A stretch of 40,628 nucleotides of DNA from Roseococcus sp. Its GTDB lineage: Bacteria > Pseudomonadota > Alphaproteobacteria > Acetobacterales > Acetobacteraceae. Positions 474-28,073 of this stretch are shown one piece after another. The position numbers and the translations under genes were made by a program. Location of the stretch: assembly GCF_019747315.1 (NCBI RefSeq), contig NZ_JAIEQY010000156.1:1-40628 (forward strand), read 5' to 3'. How positions within the stretch are numbered: the stretch's first letter is position 1; each line of letters starts with the position of its first letter. The notes beneath the pieces were generated by a model. It ran no database searches. It worked only from the letters and a program-made list of their open reading frames with translations, and was not told the DNA's origin.

Positions 474-1604
474 TCAGACGCTTTGCAGCAATCCTGCGAA
501 CAGCTTGGCACGGGGCGCCATGCTGCTGACGATCACATGCTCCTCCAGCGTATGGGCCTGGGCGCCGATGATGCCGAGGCCGTCCAGCGTCGGAATGCCC
601 ATCGCCCCCGTGAAATTGCCATCCGAGCCGCCGCCCGAGGATTGATGCGGCAGCGCGAAGCCCAGGCGCTTGGCAATACCCTCCGCCGTGGCGTGCAGGG
701 CCATCACCTTCGCATCCGGCTCCCAGACCGGGCGCGTCACGCCGCGCCGCACCTCCAGCGACACGTCATTCCCGGTCGCCTTGCGGTTCAGCATGATCTC
801 GACGGCGGCATCCAGATCCTCCTGCCGCTTGGCCATGGAGAGCGCCTCGGCGTCGCAATAGGTGGCCACGCAATTCACCCATTGCCCGGCATGGATCACG
901 CCGACTGAGAAGGTGCAGGCCTCGGTCGTCATCTCCTCGATGGCGATGACCTGCTTGCACATCTCGCGAATGGCGCTGCGGCCCTCGCCCAGACGGGCGC
1001 CGGCATGGGAGGGCTTGCCGGTGGTGCGCAGGTTGAAGCGCGCGATGGCGTAGCGGCCGGTCACCACACCGCCATCGGGGCGCGCAGGCTCGGGCACCAG
1101 CACGACCGAATGGCGCGCGGCCTCGGCCTCGATCAGGTCCCGCGTGGAAGGGCTGCCCACTTCCTCATCGGGCGTCAGCAGGACGGTCACGGGCTTGGAG
1201 GTCGCGATGCCGGCCATGGCCAACTGGCGGATCGCCTCGATCGCCAGGTAGGTGCCGCCCTTCATGTCCTGGATGCCGGGGCCGAAGGCCTTGTCGCCCT
1301 CGCGCTTGAAGGGCAGGCCATTCGCCAGCGTGCCGATGGGGTGCACCGTATCCAGATGCGCCATCACGAGGATGCCGGGCTCGTTGGACGTGTGGGGGAA
1401 GCGGGCGCGCACGCAATCGCCGAAGCCCATCCGGCCGGGAATCGTCTCGACGGTGGCACCCATCAGCGCGAGGTGCCGCGCGGCCAGCGCCATCATGCGG
1501 TTCACGGCGGCGGCGTCATGCGTCGGGCTTTCGCACTCCACCCAGGTGCGGAGGCCGGCGAGCATCGCCTCATTGTCGAAGGGCAGGTCGAGCTTGGCTT
1601 CCAT
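474..1604 (-). CDS. M20/M25/M40 family metallopeptidase (glutamate carboxypeptidase/ArgE-DapE-like)
   Basis: 376 aa. Motifs ILVMAHLDTVHP, GPGIQDMKGGTYLAIEA, LLTPDEEVGSPSTR and SSGGGSDGNF are typical of M20 metal-binding sites. Confidence 0.9.
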   Translation of the reverse strand: MEAKLDLPFDNEAMLAGLRTWVECESPTHDAAAVNRMMALAARHLALMGATVETIPGRMGFGDCVRARFPHTSNEPGILVMAHLDTVHPIGTLANGLPFKREGDKAFGPGIQDMKGGTYLAIEAIRQLAMAGIATSKPVTVLLTPDEEVGSPSTRDLIEAEAARHSVVLVPEPARPDGGVVTGRYAIARFNLRTTGKPSHAGARLGEGRSAIREMCKQVIAIEEMTTEACTFSVGVIHAGQWVNCVATYCDAEALSMAKRQEDLDAAVEIMLNRKATGNDVSLEVRRGVTRPVWEPDAKVMALHATAEGIAKRLGFALPHQSSGGGSDGNFTGAMGIPTLDGLGIIGAQAHTLEEHVIVSSMAPRAKLFAGLLQSV

Positions 1605-1654
1605 GGAAGTCCCTTTTCGTGTCGCATGGCGTCATCGCCGTGAAGGAACACAGG

Positions 1655-2401
1655 ATGCGTCTGCTCGTCGCCAATGCCAACACCACCGAGGCCATCACGG
1701 CGATGTGCGCCGAAGCCGCGCGCGCCGCCGCCAGCCCGGGCACCGAGATCATCGCCGCCACGCCGCGCTTCGGCCCTGAGGTAATCAGCAGCCGGGCCGA
1801 GAACATCATCGCGGGCCATGCCCTGCTGGCCCTTCTGGCCGAGCATGCGGGCCAGGTCGATGGCGTGGTGCTGGCGGTCAGCCATGACACGGCGCTGGAA
1901 GCCGCGCGCCAGCTCATGCCCTGCCCGGTGGTGGGCATGACCGAGGCCGCCTGCTTCACCGCCTGCCTGGTGGGCGGGCGCTTCGGCCTGGTCACCTTCG
2001 GCGGCGTCGAGACCTATCGCGAGCGGATCGCGCAGCATGGCCTGGCCTCGCGCCTCGCCGCGCTGATCGGCGTGGATGCGACGCCGCAGGAAAGCGTGCG
2101 CGACCCGGACGGCGTCCAGCGCAAGGTGATGGCGGGCATCGCGCGTGCCGTGGCGGAAGGGGCGGAGAGCGTGATCCTCGGCGGCGCGGCACTGGCCGGC
2201 TACGCCGCGCGGATGCAGGCCGAGGCGCCCGTGCCGCTGCTGGACGGCATGGCCTGCGGCGTGAAGCTGGCCGAGATGCTGGTCACGCTGAAGCTGCCCA
2301 AGCCCAGCGCTGGCAGCTTTGCCCCGCCACGCGGTCGGAACAGCATCGGCCTCTCACCGGAATTGGCGGCGATGCTCAGCGCCCCAGCCGCGTCAGCCTG
2401 A
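1655..2401 (+). CDS. Aspartate/glutamate/hydantoin racemase family protein
   Basis: MRLLVANANTTEAITAMCAEAAR...TPRFGPEVISSRAEN...VLAVSHDTALEAAR...PVVGMTEAACFTA: Asp/Glu/hydantoin racemase fold. The first ATG with a good N-terminus is at 1655, not 1619. Confidence 0.85.
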   Translation: MRLLVANANTTEAITAMCAEAARAAASPGTEIIAATPRFGPEVISSRAENIIAGHALLALLAEHAGQVDGVVLAVSHDTALEAARQLMPCPVVGMTEAACFTACLVGGRFGLVTFGGVETYRERIAQHGLASRLAALIGVDATPQESVRDPDGVQRKVMAGIARAVAEGAESVILGGAALAGYAARMQAEAPVPLLDGMACGVKLAEMLVTLKLPKPSAGSFAPPRGRNSIGLSPELAAMLSAPAASA

Positions 2402-8943: not shown

Positions 8944-9675
8944 TCAACGCGGCTTTTTGGCCCCCGCCGCCAGCACCCCATTGGTCACCAGCGAGCGCAG
9001 GACATGCTGGCGCATCCGCGCCTCGGCCAGCGCCGCGTCGCGCCGCCTGAAGGCGACGACGATGCCGCGATGCTCAGCGAGGGATTTTGGCAGGTCGCGC
9101 GGGGTGCTGCCCACGGCGCGGTGCTGGCCGCGGTGGTCATAGGCCCGCAGCGAGGCGAGGGACCGGGCCAGGAAGGCATTGCCCGCCGCTGCATGGATCA
9201 GCGCGTGGAATTCCTCATTCGCCGCATCCAGCGCGGCGGTGTCGGCCGCCGCCGTCCCTTCGGCCATGCGGCGCAGCAGCGCGGCCAGGGCCGCAAGGCC
9301 CGCGGCGTCCAGCCGTTCGGCCGCCAGCGCGGCGGCCACGCCCTCAAGCGCGGCGCGGATGCGGCCGAGTTCGGCGAGCTGCCCGGGCCCCAGCTCGGCC
9401 ACCACCGTCCCGCTGCGCGGCAGGGTGAGGACCAGCCCCTCGCGCTCCAGCCGGCGCAGCGCCTCGCGCACTGGCTGGGCGGAGATGCCGAAGGCGGCGG
9501 CCAGGCCGCGCTCGGAAATCTTGCGGCCCGGCGGCAGCGCGCCCTGGATGATGGCGTCCCGCAGGCGGCGAAAGGCCTGCTCGCCGAGCGAGAGCCCCTC
9601 CACCTCGGCGAGTGGCGCTTCCCAGGCACGACCAGGCGGGCGACCAGGCGGCTGAGCAGAAGGGCGGGGCTGCAT
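8944..9675 (-). CDS. GntR family transcriptional regulator (FCD domain)
   Basis: wHTH: LGEQAFRRLRDAIIQGALPPGRKISERGLAAAFGISAQPVREALRRLEREGLV, then an FCD helical domain. Upstream of the TRAP genes. Confidence 0.9.
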   Translation of the reverse strand: MQPRPSAQPPGRPPGRAWEAPLAEVEGLSLGEQAFRRLRDAIIQGALPPGRKISERGLAAAFGISAQPVREALRRLEREGLVLTLPRSGTVVAELGPGQLAELGRIRAALEGVAAALAAERLDAAGLAALAALLRRMAEGTAAADTAALDAANEEFHALIHAAAGNAFLARSLASLRAYDHRGQHRAVGSTPRDLPKSLAEHRGIVVAFRRRDAALAEARMRQHVLRSLVTNGVLAAGAKKPR

Positions 9676-9714: not shown

Positions 9715-10215
9715 TCAGCCGCCGCGCCGCGCCAACTCGGCCCCAAGGTTGGCCCCGAGGTTGGCCCACAGCCCGGCCGGGCAGGCGCCGGAACTGGCCA
9801 CTGCCAGGCCGAAGAGCGCGGGGCGTGGCCCGAGGCCGAGCCCCCCGGCCAGATGGCCGGAAAGTTGCCGCCAGCGCCCGCGCTCCGGCGGCGTCGGGCT
9901 GAAGGCGTTGCCATCCAGGAAACGCGCGCGCTCGCCCCAGGCCTCGCGCAGCACGTCGATATATGGGCCCCCGGGGGGAAGCAGCGCCACTTCCAGCCGG
10001 CAGGCGCCGCGCTGGAAGCCCTGCGCGGCAAAGGAACCGTCGGCCAGCAGCGCGGCTTCGCCCAAAGGCTGCCAGCCGGCCTCGGCGAGGCTCCGGGCCA
10101 GGCTGCCGGAGGCCTCGGCCTGCGGCCCCAGGGGCTGGGTGCGCGCGCGGTCGAGCCTCAGGGCGAAGCCCAGCGCCAGCACCAGGGCAAGGATCCACGG
10201 GAGCGACCTAGGCAT
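9715..10215 (-). CDS. Small N-terminally anchored protein encoded after the exosortase (candidate exosortase-associated/EpsI-like accessory)
   Basis: MPRSLPWILALVLALGFALRLDRARTQPLG...: one N-terminal TM and a soluble remainder. ATG overlaps the exosortase stop (ATGCCTAG). Confidence 0.55.
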   Translation of the reverse strand: MPRSLPWILALVLALGFALRLDRARTQPLGPQAEASGSLARSLAEAGWQPLGEAALLADGSFAAQGFQRGACRLEVALLPPGGPYIDVLREAWGERARFLDGNAFSPTPPERGRWRQLSGHLAGGLGLGPRPALFGLAVASSGACPAGLWANLGANLGAELARRGG

Positions 10216-11029
10216 CGGCACTCGCTTGCAGCACGGCCACGCAGAGCAGGCCGAAAAGATTGGTGCCCAGCACGCCATGCCCCCAGCCATAGGCCAGCGG
10301 CGACCAGGTCAGCAGCATCAGCCGCAGCAGGTTCAGCACGACCAGGATCACCACGAGCGCAAGAAGGGGGCGCAAAAGGGGCCGGCCCGCGCCCTCGGCC
10401 CGGCGCATCACCAGCAGCGCCAGCACCGCCGGCGGCAGGAAATGCGCGATGGAGCAGCCGGCCAGCACGGCGATGCCATGGCCATCCGGCATGCGCAGCA
10501 CCGCCCCGGCCAGGGTCAGCCCCGGCTCCAACCCGGAGAGAAGGGCATGGGTGGCCCAGGCCTCCAGATGGGTCAGCGCGCTCAAGGCCTCCTGGCCCAG
10601 GGCGCCGCCCAGCGGGATGGCGCCAAGCCCCGCCATGCCGATCGCGCCCCAGCGTGCCGCGCCGCGGCTGTACCAGGCGACGGCCGTGCCCATCAGCACC
10701 AGCGCGAGCGCGGCGACGAGGGTGGAGGGCAAAAGAAGCAGGCCGGCGCAGAGCGCCCCGGCCCAGGATGGCGCATGGAGGTCGCCCGCTTGCGCGCCGC
10801 GCCGCAGGGCCTCCAGCGAGGCCAGGAGGGCCATGAGGTCCAGCGGGCCCAGCCCGTTCAGGGCCAGCAGGGCGGCCGGTCCCGACTCACGCAGGGCCAG
10901 CGCCAGCGGGCCGAGCTGCAGGCTCAGCCAGGCAGCCAGCAGAAGGGCCAGGGCGAGCCCCGCCTCTCGCCCCAGGCCAGGCTCGGGGATTCGCAGCCAG
11001 CGAGGCAATGCGCGAGAGGCGGTGGCCAT
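10208..11029 (-). CDS. Exosortase/archaeosortase family protein (divergent)
   Basis: 273 aa polytopic protein. Candidate catalytic residues: Cys192 in VLAGCSIAHFLPP (codon 10456-10454), Arg236 in VLNLLRLMLLTWSP (10324-10322), His251 in YGWGHGVLGTNLFGL (10279-10277). Start overlaps the upstream stop (TGATG). Confidence 0.82.
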   Translation of the reverse strand: MATASRALPRWLRIPEPGLGREAGLALALLLAAWLSLQLGPLALALRESGPAALLALNGLGPLDLMALLASLEALRRGAQAGDLHAPSWAGALCAGLLLLPSTLVAALALVLMGTAVAWYSRGAARWGAIGMAGLGAIPLGGALGQEALSALTHLEAWATHALLSGLEPGLTLAGAVLRMPDGHGIAVLAGCSIAHFLPPAVLALLVMRRAEGAGRPLLRPLLALVVILVVLNLLRLMLLTWSPLAYGWGHGVLGTNLFGLLCVAVLQASADA

Positions 11030-11805
11030 CAGCCGGCGGCCTTGGCGCGCCGCCGGCGCCACAGGCCAAGCAGGCCGAGCAGCAGCGGGGAGCCCGCCAC
11101 CGGCGCGGCATTCACCGGCACGCTGACGGTCTGCGGCCCGGTCTGCGGGCCGAGCTTCGCGAGGTCGGTGGGCGTGATCGCCTGGGTCTGCGTGGAGTAG
11201 GCGATCATGTTGAACTCGAAAGCGGGCAAGCTGCTGCTGAAGACCACGCGGTTGAAACCTGTGTCGCCATTGAAGTTGAAATTGGCGAAATAGGTCCCCG
11301 TCGCCGCCTGGCTGCCATTCGGGTTGAGCGTCACGTCGCGCCCGCTCACGGAATCCACGAGCCGGCTGCCATTGTAGAAGGACAGCGTGTTGTAGCTGTC
11401 CACCGAGCCCCACATGATGCCGAAATACTGCTGGTTCTGGGCGTAGTTGATGGTGATCGCACCGCCCGGCTGGGTGGCGAAGTAATTGCGGCTCTCGATC
11501 CCCGTCGGCGTCCAGGGCGCGGCGGTGATGCCCGCCACATTGCCCATGTAGATGCCGGAGGTGCCGGAATAGCTGATCGAGCCCGCACTGGAATCACTCC
11601 CGAAGCGCACCGTCTCCTGGCTCACCAGTCCCGGCCGATCACCGGCGCCGAGGTCCAGCAGGTTCACCGTGCCGGATTGCGCGACGCTGGTGAGGCTGGT
11701 GGACATGGTGACATTGTCATTCGCCACGGCCTGCCGGGTCAGGCCCAACTGGCCGGCCAGGACGCATGGCGCAAGCGCCAGCCCCCAGCTCCATTTGCGT
11801 TGCAT
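11029..11805 (-). CDS. Exosortase-dependent surface protein (PEP-CTERM-like, variant sorting signal)
   Basis: 258 aa. N-terminal signal MQRKWSWGLALAPCVLAGQLGLTRQAVAN; internal motif QQYFGIMWGSVDSYNTLSFYNG, shared with exosortase-dependent surface proteins; C-terminus SVPVNAAPVAGSPLLLGLLGLWRRRRAKAAG (short motif, TM, Arg cluster). Confidence 0.8.
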   Translation of the reverse strand: MQRKWSWGLALAPCVLAGQLGLTRQAVANDNVTMSTSLTSVAQSGTVNLLDLGAGDRPGLVSQETVRFGSDSSAGSISYSGTSGIYMGNVAGITAAPWTPTGIESRNYFATQPGGAITINYAQNQQYFGIMWGSVDSYNTLSFYNGSRLVDSVSGRDVTLNPNGSQAATGTYFANFNFNGDTGFNRVVFSSSLPAFEFNMIAYSTQTQAITPTDLAKLGPQTGPQTVSVPVNAAPVAGSPLLLGLLGLWRRRRAKAAG

Positions 11806-11829
11806 GTGTCAGGCCTTTCCCGAAGTGAT

Positions 11830-11847
11830 GCCCCCATGATTGGGGGC
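11830..11847. promoter_or_regulatory. Perfect hairpin in the leader of the surface-protein gene
   Basis: gcccccaTGATtgggggc: 7-bp stem, 4-nt loop, 24 nt upstream of the ATG at 11805, with no T-tract on either side. Confidence 0.4.
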
Positions 11848-11895
11848 TCCGCGCAGGGGAAGGGGCAAGGCCCATGCCGTCGCTGCCTGCGAATC

Positions 11896-12381
11896 TCAGC
11901 GCAGGCTGCGCAGGCTCCGCTCCGCCTGGCGGCGCAGGGCGATGAGGATGGGCTGCACCACGGTGCCCTGGGTAAAGGCGCTGCCCCATTCGCTGCTGTC
12001 CACACCCAGCACGAGAAGGTTGGGCCGCAGCTGCGCCACACAGGCCGGCGGCTGGGAGACCGGGCCGCCCACCGCCGCCGGCTGGCAGGCCGGCAGGCCC
12101 TGGAGCAATTGCCAGGCCTGGTCGGTCGCCACGATGGCGCGGTTCAGCTCATCCAGCTCATAGGTGGCGGTGGGTGCGCCGAGCCGCATCACCCGGATTT
12201 CCGCGCCGATTTCGATGCGCAGGCTGCGCAGGTCGGGCCGCGTGAGCCCGGCATCGAGCGTCTCGATCAGCCGCGCCACGCTGAGGCGCAGCTCCGGCAC
12301 GCCGGCCTGGGCCGGGGCGAAGGGAAGGGTGAGGGCCAGGCCCAGCAGAAGGGCGCGGGTGGCTTGGGCGATCATGATCAT
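11896..12381 (-). CDS. Secreted hypothetical protein
   Basis: 161 aa with Sec signal MIMIAQATRALLLGLALTLPFAPAQA and two Cys. Co-directional, 90 nt upstream of the surface-protein gene. Confidence 0.6.
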   Translation of the reverse strand: MIMIAQATRALLLGLALTLPFAPAQAGVPELRLSVARLIETLDAGLTRPDLRSLRIEIGAEIRVMRLGAPTATYELDELNRAIVATDQAWQLLQGLPACQPAAVGGPVSQPPACVAQLRPNLLVLGVDSSEWGSAFTQGTVVQPILIALRRQAERSLRSLR

Positions 12382-12545
12382 CTCCGATCCAGTTCCCCAT
12401 CGCGGGGTGTTGCACCGGCCTGCCGCCGCTTGCCGCCAGCCTCACGACCGGCATCCCGCGACAGGCCGAGAGAATGGCGGGGTATCAGCAAGGAACGGGC
12501 CACGGACGCATCCGTGCGGTGCCGGAGCACCACCAATCCACTTGC

Positions 12546-12578: not shown

Positions 12579-13286
12579 ATGTCGGCCACCAAGCTCCCTC
12601 CCGAAGCGCCGCGCGCCAGCGCCGTGGACGTCGCCTATGAGGCGCTGCGGGGCATGCTGCTGCTGTATGAGCTGCGCCCCGGCGAGCGGTTGAACGAGGT
12701 TCACCTAGCCGAACGCCTCGGCCTTTCCCGCACGCCCTTGCGTGAGGCGTTGAACCGCCTGGCGGCCGAGCGCCTGCTGGTGGCCCGCGGCGGCCAGGGC
12801 TTCTTCGTGCGCGACCTCGACCTGCGCGAGGCGATGGACCTTTACGAATTGCGCGAGGCGCTGGAAGCCACCGCCTTCCGCCTGGCCTGCGAGCGCGCGA
12901 CGCCCAGCGCCGTGGCGGCGCTGGGCCGTTCCTGGCGCGCGCGGCATCGCCAATTGGCCCGCGCGCAGGACCGTGCCGCGATGGTGGCGGAGGATGTGCG
13001 CTTCCATGAATCGCTCTGCGCCCTCGCCGCCAATGCCGAGCTGCTGCGTGCGCTGAACGAGGTGAATGCGCGCACCACCTTCATCCGCTGGGCCTATGCT
13101 ACCGGCCCCCGCCCCGAGCTGAACCTGGACGAGCATGACGCGCTGCTGGAAGCGCTGGTGGCGCGTGATGCCGCGGCCGGCGCCGAGATCCTGAAGCGCC
13201 ATATCGGCCGCCGCGCTGAGGCCTTGACCACCTTGCTGGCGCCCGCGCGCGCCTTTCCGATCACCCCCCGCAGGAGGACTCCCTGA
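12579..13286 (+). CDS. GntR family transcriptional regulator (FCD domain)
   Basis: AYEALRGMLLLYELRPGERLNEVHLAERLGLSRTPLREALNRLAAERLL wHTH plus FCD domain. ATG at 12579 preferred over TTG at 12570. Confidence 0.9.
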   Translation: MSATKLPPEAPRASAVDVAYEALRGMLLLYELRPGERLNEVHLAERLGLSRTPLREALNRLAAERLLVARGGQGFFVRDLDLREAMDLYELREALEATAFRLACERATPSAVAALGRSWRARHRQLARAQDRAAMVAEDVRFHESLCALAANAELLRALNEVNARTTFIRWAYATGPRPELNLDEHDALLEALVARDAAAGAEILKRHIGRRAEALTTLLAPARAFPITPRRRTP

Positions 13287-17851: not shown

Positions 17852-18633
17852 GGCTGACCCGGCCGGACGGCGCCGAACTCGCCGTCACCATCACGGGCGA
17901 GGGGCCGGGCCTGCTCCTCGTCTCGGGTCTCGGCGGCACCGCGGCCTTCTGGTCGAAGCTGGTGCCGGCGCTGGCGCCGCATTTCCGCGTGGCGGTGCTG
18001 GACCAGCGCGGCGTGGGCGCCAGCACGCGCGGCACGGCGGAGGTGAACATCACCACGCTGGCCGAGGATGCGGCGGCGGTGGCGGCCGCGCTCGGCGGGC
18101 CGGTCGCGCTGTGCGGCCATTCCACCGGGGCGGCCATCGTGCTGAGCATGGCGGCGGGGCGCATGTGCGACGTCTCGCGCCTCGTGCTCTCGGCCGGTTG
18201 GCTGAAGCCCGATCCCTATCTGCACGCGCTGTTCACCACGCGCCTGGCCATCCTGGAGCGCGCCGGCTACGCCGCCTATGAGCAGATGGGCCGCTTCCTG
18301 GGCTATCCGGCCGAGACGCTGGTCGCGGCCGGGGGCTTCGCCGAACCGGCCCTGATGTCCGAGGCGCGCGAGGCGGAGGAGCGCCTGCGCTGGTCCGAAC
18401 GCATCGGCGCGCTGCTGGGCTTCGACGGCACGGGGCTGCCGGCGCGCGTGGCGGTGCCGACGCTGGTGCTGGGCACGCCGGATGACGCCATCGTGCCGCA
18501 TCACCATCAGCGCGAAACGGCGCTGGCCATCCGCGGCGCCGCCTTCGCGCCCCTGGCCGATGGCGGGCATTTCTACCCGCAGACGCGGCAGGCCGCGTTC
18601 CTGGACCGGCTCTCGCCCTTCCTGCGCGGCTGA
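17848..18633 (+). CDS. Alpha/beta hydrolase
   Basis: LLLVSGLGGTAAFW...VLDQRGVGAS...ALCGHSTGAAIVLSMA nucleophile elbow; TTG start overlapping DctP stop. Confidence 0.88.
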   Translation: MRLTRPDGAELAVTITGEGPGLLLVSGLGGTAAFWSKLVPALAPHFRVAVLDQRGVGASTRGTAEVNITTLAEDAAAVAAALGGPVALCGHSTGAAIVLSMAAGRMCDVSRLVLSAGWLKPDPYLHALFTTRLAILERAGYAAYEQMGRFLGYPAETLVAAGGFAEPALMSEAREAEERLRWSERIGALLGFDGTGLPARVAVPTLVLGTPDDAIVPHHHQRETALAIRGAAFAPLADGGHFYPQTRQAAFLDRLSPFLRG

Positions 18634-22158: not shown

Positions 22159-22199
22159 GGATGAAGCTTCTCCGGGTGGTTTCGCCCGGGAGCATGCCC

Positions 22200-23216
22200 T
22201 CAGCCGCCGAGTTCCGCCAATTCCCGCTCCAGCGCCGCGATATCGGCGCGAAGCTGCACGAGATGGGCGTCACGCTGGGTGATCTCGGCCTCGCTCTTCA
22301 GCTTCCAGCCAAAGGCCGCGGTGATGTCCTGGCGCTTCCGGCGGATCTGCTCGCGCAGATCAACCCGCCGGGCGGCGCGCTCCGGCGGCTCGGGCTCGGG
22401 GTCCGGCGGCGCGTGGTGTTGCGCGAAATAGGACTGGTGCTCCTCGGGCTTCCCGCGCATCCCCCGCTCCTCACCCTCCCCCGCCTCCTCTTCTTCCTGG
22501 TAGTCCGACCACAGCGCACCACGGGCGGCCAGCCCGCCGAAGAGCTGGATCAGCGCCGACCAGCGCAGCGCAGCCAGGCGCTCGGCCGCACGGTTGCGCC
22601 GGCTGCCGCCGCGCAGCGTCCAGTCACGCGCATGGCTCAGCGCCTCGGCAGCGCGGCGGAAGGCGCGGGCGGCCTGAGGGCCATATTCGAGGTCGAGATA
22701 CTCCGCCACATCCTCCAGCGCGGCGCGGCCGCGCAGGGCGCGGCGATACTGCCGCCAGCCCGACATGACTGCCCGCGCCTGGATGCGGGCCTCCAGCCGG
22801 TCCAGGGCCCGCAGGCTGAAGGCCTCGGCGAACCAGTCCCAGGCCCAGGCCAGGTGATAGCCGAGCCAGCGTGCCGCCTCGGCCAGCCAATGGGCGTGGC
22901 GGCGCAGGCGGAAGGCGGCCCAGAGCGGCATGAACAGCGCGATCGCCAGGGCCGGCGGGGCCGGCGTGCCGGCCAGGGCCAGCAGCACGACGACCGGCAA
23001 GGCGGCGAGGAGCACGGCATCCACGGCCAGGGTCAGCATGGTGGCCAGCTTGGCGCCCAGCCGGCGCGGCGCCGCGTGCTGCCGGCGCAGCATGGCGCGG
23101 GAGCGCTCCAGCACGGCCCGCGCCTCCGGATGCGAGTCGGCAAGGCCGCTGCGTTCCAGCTGGGCGATCAAGAGGCGCAATTCCTGCACCGAATGCGCGG
23201 TGCGCGTGACCGACAC
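22200..23216 (-). CDS. Hypothetical membrane/coiled-coil protein
   Basis: 338 aa. Central TM pair (AVLLAALPVVVLLALAGTPAPPALAIALFMPLWAAF), Arg-rich helices, acidic linker, C-terminal coiled coil. Confidence 0.65.
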   Translation of the reverse strand: MSVTRTAHSVQELRLLIAQLERSGLADSHPEARAVLERSRAMLRRQHAAPRRLGAKLATMLTLAVDAVLLAALPVVVLLALAGTPAPPALAIALFMPLWAAFRLRRHAHWLAEAARWLGYHLAWAWDWFAEAFSLRALDRLEARIQARAVMSGWRQYRRALRGRAALEDVAEYLDLEYGPQAARAFRRAAEALSHARDWTLRGGSRRNRAAERLAALRWSALIQLFGGLAARGALWSDYQEEEEAGEGEERGMRGKPEEHQSYFAQHHAPPDPEPEPPERAARRVDLREQIRRKRQDITAAFGWKLKSEAEITQRDAHLVQLRADIAALERELAELGG

Positions 23217-23279
23217 GGGACCCTCCGGGGGGCAGGCCAGCCCCTGGCCCCACTTGCCACAGGGAGGATGAGAGTTCGG

Positions 23280-23849
23280 TTAAGGCGCGCGCGAGAGGCT
23301 GGCCTGGCGCAGCGCCTCGCGCTCCTCGGCCAGGACCGCGAAATACTCCAGCAGGTGAAGCCCGGCATATTTGACCACCAGGATGGCCGGGATGCTGACC
23401 GCCGCGCGGTTGTAGCACAGCGCGGCCTCGTTGAAGGCCTCGCCCGCCAGGGCGATTTCGGCATCCAGCTCCTCGAAGCTGGCCCGGATGCGGCGAAAGG
23501 TCAGCTCCGCGCCCAGCTCCGGATGGGTGCGCTCCAGGTCGAGCACGCGCTGCATCGCGGTGGCCAGATGCAACTCGGCCCGCCCCGTGGCGTCGGGCGA
23601 GAGATCCGCCCCGAGGGCAGCGTTGCGGGCCTGCAGCAGCGTGTCGGTCAGCTTTTTCTGCTTCGGCAAATGGGCCAGCACCAGCTGGATCAGCGGGGCG
23701 ACCAGGTCATGGCGCTGCCGCAGCAGCATTTCCAGCGGGTCCCAGGTCGCGATCGCGGCCCGCCGCATGCCCGACAGGCGAACATGGGTCAGGGCGATCC
23801 AAAGGCCCAGCACCACCAGGATCGCCGGGATCAACCACTCCAGGGGCAT
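23280..23849 (-). CDS. LemA-like membrane protein
   Basis: One N-terminal TM then helices: RRAAIATWDPLEMLLRQRHDLVAPLIQLVLAHLPKQ...EAFNEAALCYNRAAVSIPAILVVKYAGLHLLEYF. Confidence 0.7.
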   Translation of the reverse strand: MPLEWLIPAILVVLGLWIALTHVRLSGMRRAAIATWDPLEMLLRQRHDLVAPLIQLVLAHLPKQKKLTDTLLQARNAALGADLSPDATGRAELHLATAMQRVLDLERTHPELGAELTFRRIRASFEELDAEIALAGEAFNEAALCYNRAAVSIPAILVVKYAGLHLLEYFAVLAEEREALRQASLSRAP

Positions 23850-24022
23850 GCGTGTCTCCAGTTTGACGGCGAAAGCTAGCCCTGGCGGCGGGTTGCGGAA
23901 AGGGCCGCTGAGGCGCGACCGGCGCCGATCCTCCCTTGCCTTCGCGCCAGGGATGACCTAACTCGCCTGCTTCAACGGCTGGGCAGCCATCGCCGCCTGC
24001 CGCATCCCGGAAAGCCCCGATC

Positions 24023-26470: not shown

Positions 26471-26959
26471 ATGGCGGAAAGCACGCCCCAAGTGGGCGTC
26501 ATCATGGGCAGCCGCTCCGATTGGGAGACGATGCGCCATGCCGATGAAACACTGGCGGCGCTGGGCATCGCGCATGAATGCCGCGTCGTCTCCGCCCATC
26601 GCACGCCGGAGCGGCTGTTCGACTATGCGCGCACGGCCAAGGGACGCGGCGTGCAGGTGATCATCGCCGGCGCCGGCGGGGCGGCGCACCTGCCGGGCAT
26701 GGCGGCGAGCATGACGCCGCTGCCCGTCCTCGGCGTGCCGGTCGAGTCCCATGCGCTGAAGGGGATGGATTCCCTGCTCTCCATCGTGCAGATGCCGGGC
26801 GGTGTGCCGGTGGGCACGCTGGCCATCGGCAAGGCGGGGGCGATCAACGCGGCGCTGCTCGCGGCCAGCATCCTGGCCCTGGCCGACCCCGCTCTGGCCG
26901 AGCGGCTGGAGGCCTGGCGCGCCCGGCAGACCGAGGGCGTGCCGCATGACCCGGCCTGA
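26471..26959 (+). CDS. purE: 5-(carboxyamino)imidazole ribonucleotide mutase
   Basis: [21 protein letters not shown]...[14 protein letters not shown]...[17 protein letters not shown]. Confidence 0.96.
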
Positions 26960-28073
26960 GGCCCTTCCGCTGGGGGCCACCATCGGCATCCTGGGCGGCG
27001 GGCAGCTGGGGCGCATGAGCGCCATGGCCGCGGCCCGCCTGGGCTATCGCTGCCATATCTTCGCGCCCGAGGCGGAATCGCCCGCCCGGCAGGTGGCGGC
27101 CGAGGCCACCATCGCCGCCTATGATGATGTCGAGGCCCTGCACCGCTTCGCCGCGGCGGTGGATGTCGTCACCTATGAATTCGAGAATGTGCCCGCGGCC
27201 ACCCTGGCCGCGCTGGAGGGCCGCGTCCCGTGCAGGCCTGGCCCGCGCGCCCTGGCGATCTGCCAGGACCGCCTGGCCGAGAAGCGCTTCCTGGCCGAGG
27301 CCGGCGTGCCGGTCGGTCCCTGGCGGGCGGTCCATAGCCCCGAGGAACTGACCGCCGCCCTGGCCGAAATCGGCCTGCCGGCGGTGCTGAAGACCACCCG
27401 CCTGGGCTATGACGGGCGCGGCCAGGCCGTGCTGCGCCGGCCCGAGGACGCCCTGCCCGCCTATGAGCGGCTTTCGCCCAGGCCCCTCATCCTGGAGGCC
27501 TTCATCCCCTTCACCGCCGAGATCTCCGCCATCGCGGCGCGCGGGCTGGATGGGTCGGTCGCGAGCTATGACGCGGTGGAGAACCAGCACCGGCATCATA
27601 TCCTGGACCTCTCCTTTGCCCCGGCCCGCCTGCCGGAGGCGGCCGCGCGCGCGGCGCGGGCGAATGTCGCCCGCGTGGCCGAGGCGCTGGAACTGGTGGG
27701 GCTGGTGGCGCTGGAGATGTTCCTGCTGCCGGATGGATCCCTGCTGGGGAATGAGATCGCGCCCCGGCCGCATAATTCCGGGCACTGGACCATGGATGCC
27801 TGCGTCTGTGGGCAGTTCGAGCAGCATATTCGCGCCGTGGCCGGCCTGCCGCTTGGCCCCGTCACCCGGCATGCCGATGCGGTGATGCGCAACCTGGTCG
27901 GCCCCGAGGGGCTGGCGGCCTGGCCGGGCCTGCTCGCCCGGGGCGATGTGGTGGCGCATTGGTACGGCAAGGCGGAGGCCAAGCCCGGCCGCAAGCTGGG
28001 ACATGCCAACCGGCTTTTGCCCCTGGATGCCCTGGCGGCGCTGGACGATGTGACCGCTTGTGACGGAATATGA
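26946..28073 (+). CDS. purK: 5-(carboxyamino)imidazole ribonucleotide synthase
   Basis: [31 protein letters not shown]...[10 protein letters not shown]...[17 protein letters not shown]. Confidence 0.96.

Follow-up and report, generated by a model that had tools for sequence, protein, structure and literature searches.

One exosortase usually has many targets, scattered around the genome. Partly for this reason, the chemistry of exosortases and the destination of their products are, to our knowledge, still poorly established. The invariant residues of EpsH are C-x-G, N-x-x-R and H-x-x-x-G (Haft et al. 2006, PMC1569441), and some EpsH proteins are fused to EpsI (PMC1569441). In 2011, Haft and colleagues gave the name 'dedicated systems' to cases in which a sortase, exosortase or rhombosortase has just one target, and noted that the two are then often neighbours (PMC3237569).

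We analysed a stretch of 40,628 nucleotides from Roseococcus sp. (contig NZ_JAIEQY010000156.1, hereafter the window) that holds a candidate for such a system. Four co-directional minus-strand genes, read from 12381 to 9715, encode a secreted, a tail-anchored, a polytopic and a one-TM protein. The first, SEC (11896..12381), is a 161-residue protein with a signal peptide and no family found. SUB (11029..11805; 258 residues) has a signal peptide, an Npun_F0296 domain at residues 63-198 and a C-terminal sorting tail, and is the putative sole substrate. XRT (10208..11029; 273 residues) is polytopic and exosortase-like. EAP (9715..10215; 166 residues) is an exosortase-associated protein with one TM and two family-invariant cysteines. 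The SUB stop overlaps the XRT start (TGATG at 11031-11027), and the XRT stop overlaps the EAP start (ATGCCTAG at 10215-10208). The earlier note had given the four genes and both overlaps correctly to the base. We consider it very probable, on the sequence comparisons below, that this unit is a self-contained one-enzyme-one-substrate exosortase system, in which XRT would recognize and process the adjacent SUB through its tail.

The four open reading frames are genuine genes. In other genomes, homologues of all four keep this gene order. In SUB and XRT, substitutions relative to the three nearest relatives are concentrated at third codon positions (against locus L016, 53/34/92 differences at positions 1/2/3 in XRT and 17/26/65 in SUB), and of the six reading frames across the XRT gene just the coding one stays open in the window and in all three of these relatives. 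An antisense open reading frame over the XRT gene (10277-11197, plus strand) was rejected, being closed in some relatives. Searches for sigma-70 promoter-like sites, terminator-like sites and tRNA found none.

SUB matches the Npun_F0296 exosortase-dependent domain model NF050191 well above its cut-off (E = 1.4e-22, 80.7 bits, cut-off 29) and is single-copy in its own genome. Its signal peptide, like those of the partner proteins, was judged by eye. Its tail (residues 223-258; 11032..11139, minus strand; VPVNAAPVAGSPLLLGLLGLWRRRRAKAAG) was delimited by an alignment of close-homologue tails and a tail-profile match. The motif NAAPVAGSP (11112-11086, minus strand) is followed by a short hydrophobic stretch and RRRR. 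The motif-TM-Arg tail described by the earlier note is indeed present, with the refinement that a few more residues lie beyond the basic cluster and the hydrophobic stretch is only about 14-17 residues long. Written as a pattern, the tail is NAAP(V/I/L)A(G/A)SP, then a hydrophobic stretch of short length, then RRRR; it is not PEP. Among close homologues the aligned tails retain N-x-A-P-x-A-x-S-P-L-L and RRRR, and those of more distant homologues read PAPLPALAASPLG, PAPMPEIGSTPLG and PAPLGLPGATPAG. No NCBIfam C-terminal sorting model reached its cut-off on any scanned tail.

What might SUB do? In Nostoc, motility, biofilm formation and scytonemin production all require cyanoexosortase B, and Npun_F0296 is among the PEP-CTERM proteins upregulated in Nostoc hormogonia (PMC12188702). 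This hints that SUB has a role at the surface or in the matrix. The SUB domain also occurs inside giant open reading frames of 2821-4396 codons in four genomes (L074-L077, in G429, G461, G415 and G439); these carry SGVxFxDxNxDGVQ-type repeats and are apparently large adhesins.

Proteins of the Npun_F0296 type were matched in 51 of 398 genomes of the family. The eight strongest SUB homologues in this survey (E < 1e-70) all abut XRT, so that the enzyme and the 258-residue protein do co-occur in the homologous neighbourhoods. A partner with a signal peptide and a motif-hydrophobic-basic tail adjoins XRT in all ten substrate-domain loci and in two further loci, L051 and L052. None of the ten Npun_F0296 proteins beside XRT has P-E-P in its tail. 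Among 18 complete C-termini of Npun_F0296 proteins elsewhere, 13 have P-E-P, three P-A-P and two neither, most being of VPEP type (P-E-P beside XRT versus elsewhere, 0/10 versus 13/18: Fisher p = 2.5e-4 without correction for kinship). In L051 and L052, XRT is fused to EAP, and its neighbour, transcribed divergently, is a choice-of-anchor A protein (TIGR04215, E = 1e-26). This protein is unrelated to SUB, but its tail is related (PAP...GSSPLG...RGRLRR): the two tails, PAPMLPPGSSPLGLAVLAWFGRGRLRR or PAPAPLPLLGSSPLGMLVLAWFGRGRLRR, resemble those of SUB homologues. Because the tails beside XRT are free of PEP and a related tail sits on an unrelated protein, the tail goes with the adjacent enzyme and not with the passenger domain.

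A tail-profile search of six genomes gave exactly one strong match in each (E ≤ 1e-17). Second-best matches had E values of 0.008 or worse, that in the window's genome being 0.58, and the better of these weak matches, on inspection, were not tails of the SUB kind. The profile derives from the very tails that it finds and only part of the first-look candidates were scored, so that a second target with a looser tail may have escaped. At this depth the SUB-type tail occurs once in the window's genome, and far-off identical tails were not found.

XRT could be exosortase-like and still not be dedicated: it might act on PEP-CTERM proteins too, or a canonical exosortase might also process SUB. The window's genome (G000) encodes a separate canonical PF09721 exosortase with a PEP-CTERM neighbour and has two strong PEP-CTERM tails, and both kinds of tail share the order of motif, hydrophobic stretch and arginines. 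XRT and a canonical exosortase also occur together in G014. However, tail type follows the adjacent enzyme. Moreover, XRT and the SUB-type tail are present in four genomes (G015, G019, G024 and G035) in which no PF09721 exosortase was matched, which argues that XRT is independent of the canonical enzyme, and most genomes with a PF09721 exosortase are without XRT. We regard the shared-substrate reading as unlikely. The word 'dedicated', used by the earlier note, suits XRT with its one target; it does not suit the cell as a whole, where a canonical exosortase and PEP-CTERM targets coexist.

The canonical exosortase gene in the window's genome (L001, G000:C390, about 1408-2300, minus strand) is interrupted in frame by a TAG stop, early in its protein. 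Either a broken gene or a mistake in the assembly could explain this. If the gene is truly broken, XRT is the only intact exosortase found in that genome.

Is XRT an exosortase? Its sole library match is the exosortase/archaeosortase signature TIGR04178, below the cut-off (E = 0.014, 15.6 bits, cut-off 23); it has no Pfam match, and it falls below the cut-off of every exosortase model searched. Its homologues were collected from relatives, a family survey and a class survey. Two of them (L049 and L061) exceed the TIGR04178 cut-off (24.6 versus 23), and a distant relative (G040:C111) passes PF09721 (26.9 versus 25.7). Several match XrtH, XrtR, XrtS, CrtC and ArtE over the catalytic region, far under the cut-offs (best sub-threshold subfamilies XrtH, 25.4 versus 86, and XrtS, 27 versus 145, with XrtR and cyanoexosortase C as well), and no scanned homologue reaches the cut-off of any named exosortase subfamily. 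The enzyme was found in at least 14 of 398 Acetobacteraceae genomes and at least 8 of 385 genomes of the class survey, both lower bounds with six first-look candidates scored per genome.

In an alignment of 19 XRT homologues, the most divergent of which is 18% identical to the XRT of the window, the only invariant columns are G183, C192 (10456-10454), L203, N233 and R236 (10333-10331 and 10324-10322), and H251 and G255 (10279-10277 and 10267-10265; all minus strand). The family thus keeps five of the six EpsH invariants: C, NxxR and HxxxG. The glycine two residues past the cysteine is not kept (C-S-I/V/L, C-A-T and others). When the XRT family profile was aligned by hhalign to a profile of 22 canonical exosortases taken from relatives (E = 6e-5 in local mode and 5e-7 in global mode), the Cys, Asn-Arg and His positions of the two coincided. 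Hydropathy indicates about 6-8 transmembrane segments, where about eight helices are expected of the superfamily. AlphaFold2 models from three-sequence alignments are of low confidence (mean pLDDT 45 for XRT, which is modelled as all-helical, and 40 for SUB), and a PDB sequence search with the XRT profile gave no match. We conclude that XRT probably forms an unnamed, divergent subfamily of the exosortase/archaeosortase superfamily; we do not file it under XrtA because of the absent C-x-G glycine and the model scores.

That XRT is instead a relative that lacks catalysis or acts in another way (as a chaperone, an exporter or a polysaccharide-linked membrane protein), drifted from the exosortase fold, with SUB simply membrane-anchored, would fit the incomplete C-x-G and the lack of a family model at cut-off for the window protein but is highly improbable, because drift would not preserve the exosortase catalytic set that mainly makes up the invariants across 19 proteins (down to 18-25% identity), and in the tail it is the motif, not hydrophobicity alone, that is conserved.

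The reading of the locus as a dedicated single-substrate exosortase unit, put forward in the earlier note, is therefore supported on the three counts on which it could have failed: no non-exosortase family matched the 273-residue protein, its homologues keep company with the 258-residue protein, and the tail-profile search gave no second strong match in the genome.

More distant relatives of XRT (L054, L055, L056, L057, L060, L061 and L065) adjoin short proteins with other tails (PAPLxxxGxP, VPGPLEGVGLP, ELPAxxFGWATLG); those scanned matched no library model at cut-off. There are possibly several further enzyme-tail codes beside these relatives.

EAP is suggested to act as part of the enzyme, since EAP and XRT form one open frame in four loci (L050, L051, L052 and L053). 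Across 14 EAP homologues the invariant residues are one Gly and two Cys (RGAC, GACP). Profile comparison of EAP with fused canonical EpsI regions did not detect homology (E = 0.32). SEC matched no family in the libraries searched. Its homologues lie upstream of the SUB gene in L014-L017, L048 and L049 and on the opposite strand in L053; L018 has no SEC, and none was found in L050-L052. It is a frequent, non-obligatory periplasmic partner. One genome with an intact unit (G019) also carries a second, frameshifted XRT copy with an EAP gene and no SUB (L019, G019:C21, 6382-7391).

The unit lies between two GntR/FCD regulators, upstream at 12579-13283 (plus strand) and downstream at 8947-9675 (minus strand), each adjoining a TRAP island (DctP/DctQ/DctM). 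A Pfam scan of 30 other open reading frames of the window found no polysaccharide-biosynthesis gene, in line with the earlier note's remark that local EPS biosynthesis genes are missing. One related locus (L015) shares both flanks with the window and another (L014) the downstream side. A third, L016, comes from a congeneric genome in two contigs and has only 9778-12387 in common with the window, which is the unit itself. The orthologues of the flanking GntR genes lie far apart in G005 and G015 (single- and two-contig genomes), and a search for a simple empty site through them did not yield one. The unit thus behaves as a block, but its present site is not reducible to a clean insertion. The insertion between GntR/TRAP islands, proposed by the earlier note, is therefore only partly borne out, by the unit being on its own in a relative. 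The window's assembly is fragmented (407 contigs), but the unit is not an artefact of this, because it is also present in G015, which has two contigs (98% complete, 1% contamination). Elsewhere in the window, three open frames (18148-18630, plus; 22161-23876, plus; 26847-28004, minus) have coding-like base composition and no Pfam match.

How might the system work? Following the exosortase/archaeosortase model of export, anchoring, thiol attack and transfer (PMC1569441; PMC7157517), SUB would be exported through Sec, to judge from its signal peptide, and its C-terminal hydrophobic stretch would keep it anchored in the inner membrane. The standard tripartite layout would place RRRR in the cytoplasm and NAAPxAxSP at the periplasmic face. 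XRT would then recognize the tail, with Cys192 attacking and Arg236 and His251 assisting. By analogy with archaeosortase A and EpsH, the C-terminal peptide would be released and SUB passed to an acceptor, and thereby freed for the outer envelope or surface. EAP would work as part of the enzyme, where it may shape the active site, present the acceptor or receive the product.

The nature of the acceptor invites a more tentative proposal. Archaeosortase A transfers its substrate to lipid. Because the system is one-to-one and no exopolysaccharide genes lie nearby, an acceptor other than exopolysaccharide may apply here. It is conceivable, though we would not favour it strongly, that XRT belongs to a separate alphaproteobacterial exosortase branch with the tail code AP...(A/G/S)(S/T)P, an often-fused Cys partner and a non-exopolysaccharide acceptor, such as a lipid, with EAP aiding transfer.

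With one enzyme, one substrate and a partner in a three- or four-gene unit, this is close to a minimal system for studying cleavage, the acceptor and the role of the partner, and the more so as some genomes carry the unit with no other exosortase detected. XRT-type proteins would otherwise stay 'hypothetical', because current models mostly miss the family.

Set against known systems, XRT resembles EpsH/XrtA (TIGR02602, TIGR03109, PF09721) in being polytopic with C, NxxR and HxxxG, in its tripartite substrate tail and in having a single-TM partner that is encoded downstream or fused to the enzyme (EpsI for EpsH, EAP for XRT). Unlike EpsH/XrtA, it lies under all model cut-offs and its C-x-G lacks the Gly. 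It differs from the XrtA/PEP-CTERM system in its tail (NAAPxAxSP, not PEP), in having a single adjacent target and not many scattered ones, in having no EPS genes found nearby and in an EAP that is not detectably EpsI. The link to the TIGR04178 superfamily lies in sub-threshold hits to the catalytic region in several homologues and in two homologues above the cut-off; unlike XrtH, XrtR, XrtS and cyanoexosortase C, the homologues scanned reach no named-subfamily cut-off. The folded part of SUB belongs with the NF050191 Npun_F0296 proteins, whereas most Acetobacteraceae members read elsewhere have VPEP-type tails and those adjoining XRT do not. As in the dedicated systems, the single target is encoded next door, but the enzyme subfamily and the tail motif are not those of the rhombosortase (GlyGly-CTERM) examples (PMC3237569). 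For the XRT subfamily, the tail and EAP we found no library model and no description in the literature searched, which did not include the 2012 exosortase survey. The layout is therefore already known, whereas these three components are new to the libraries that we searched.
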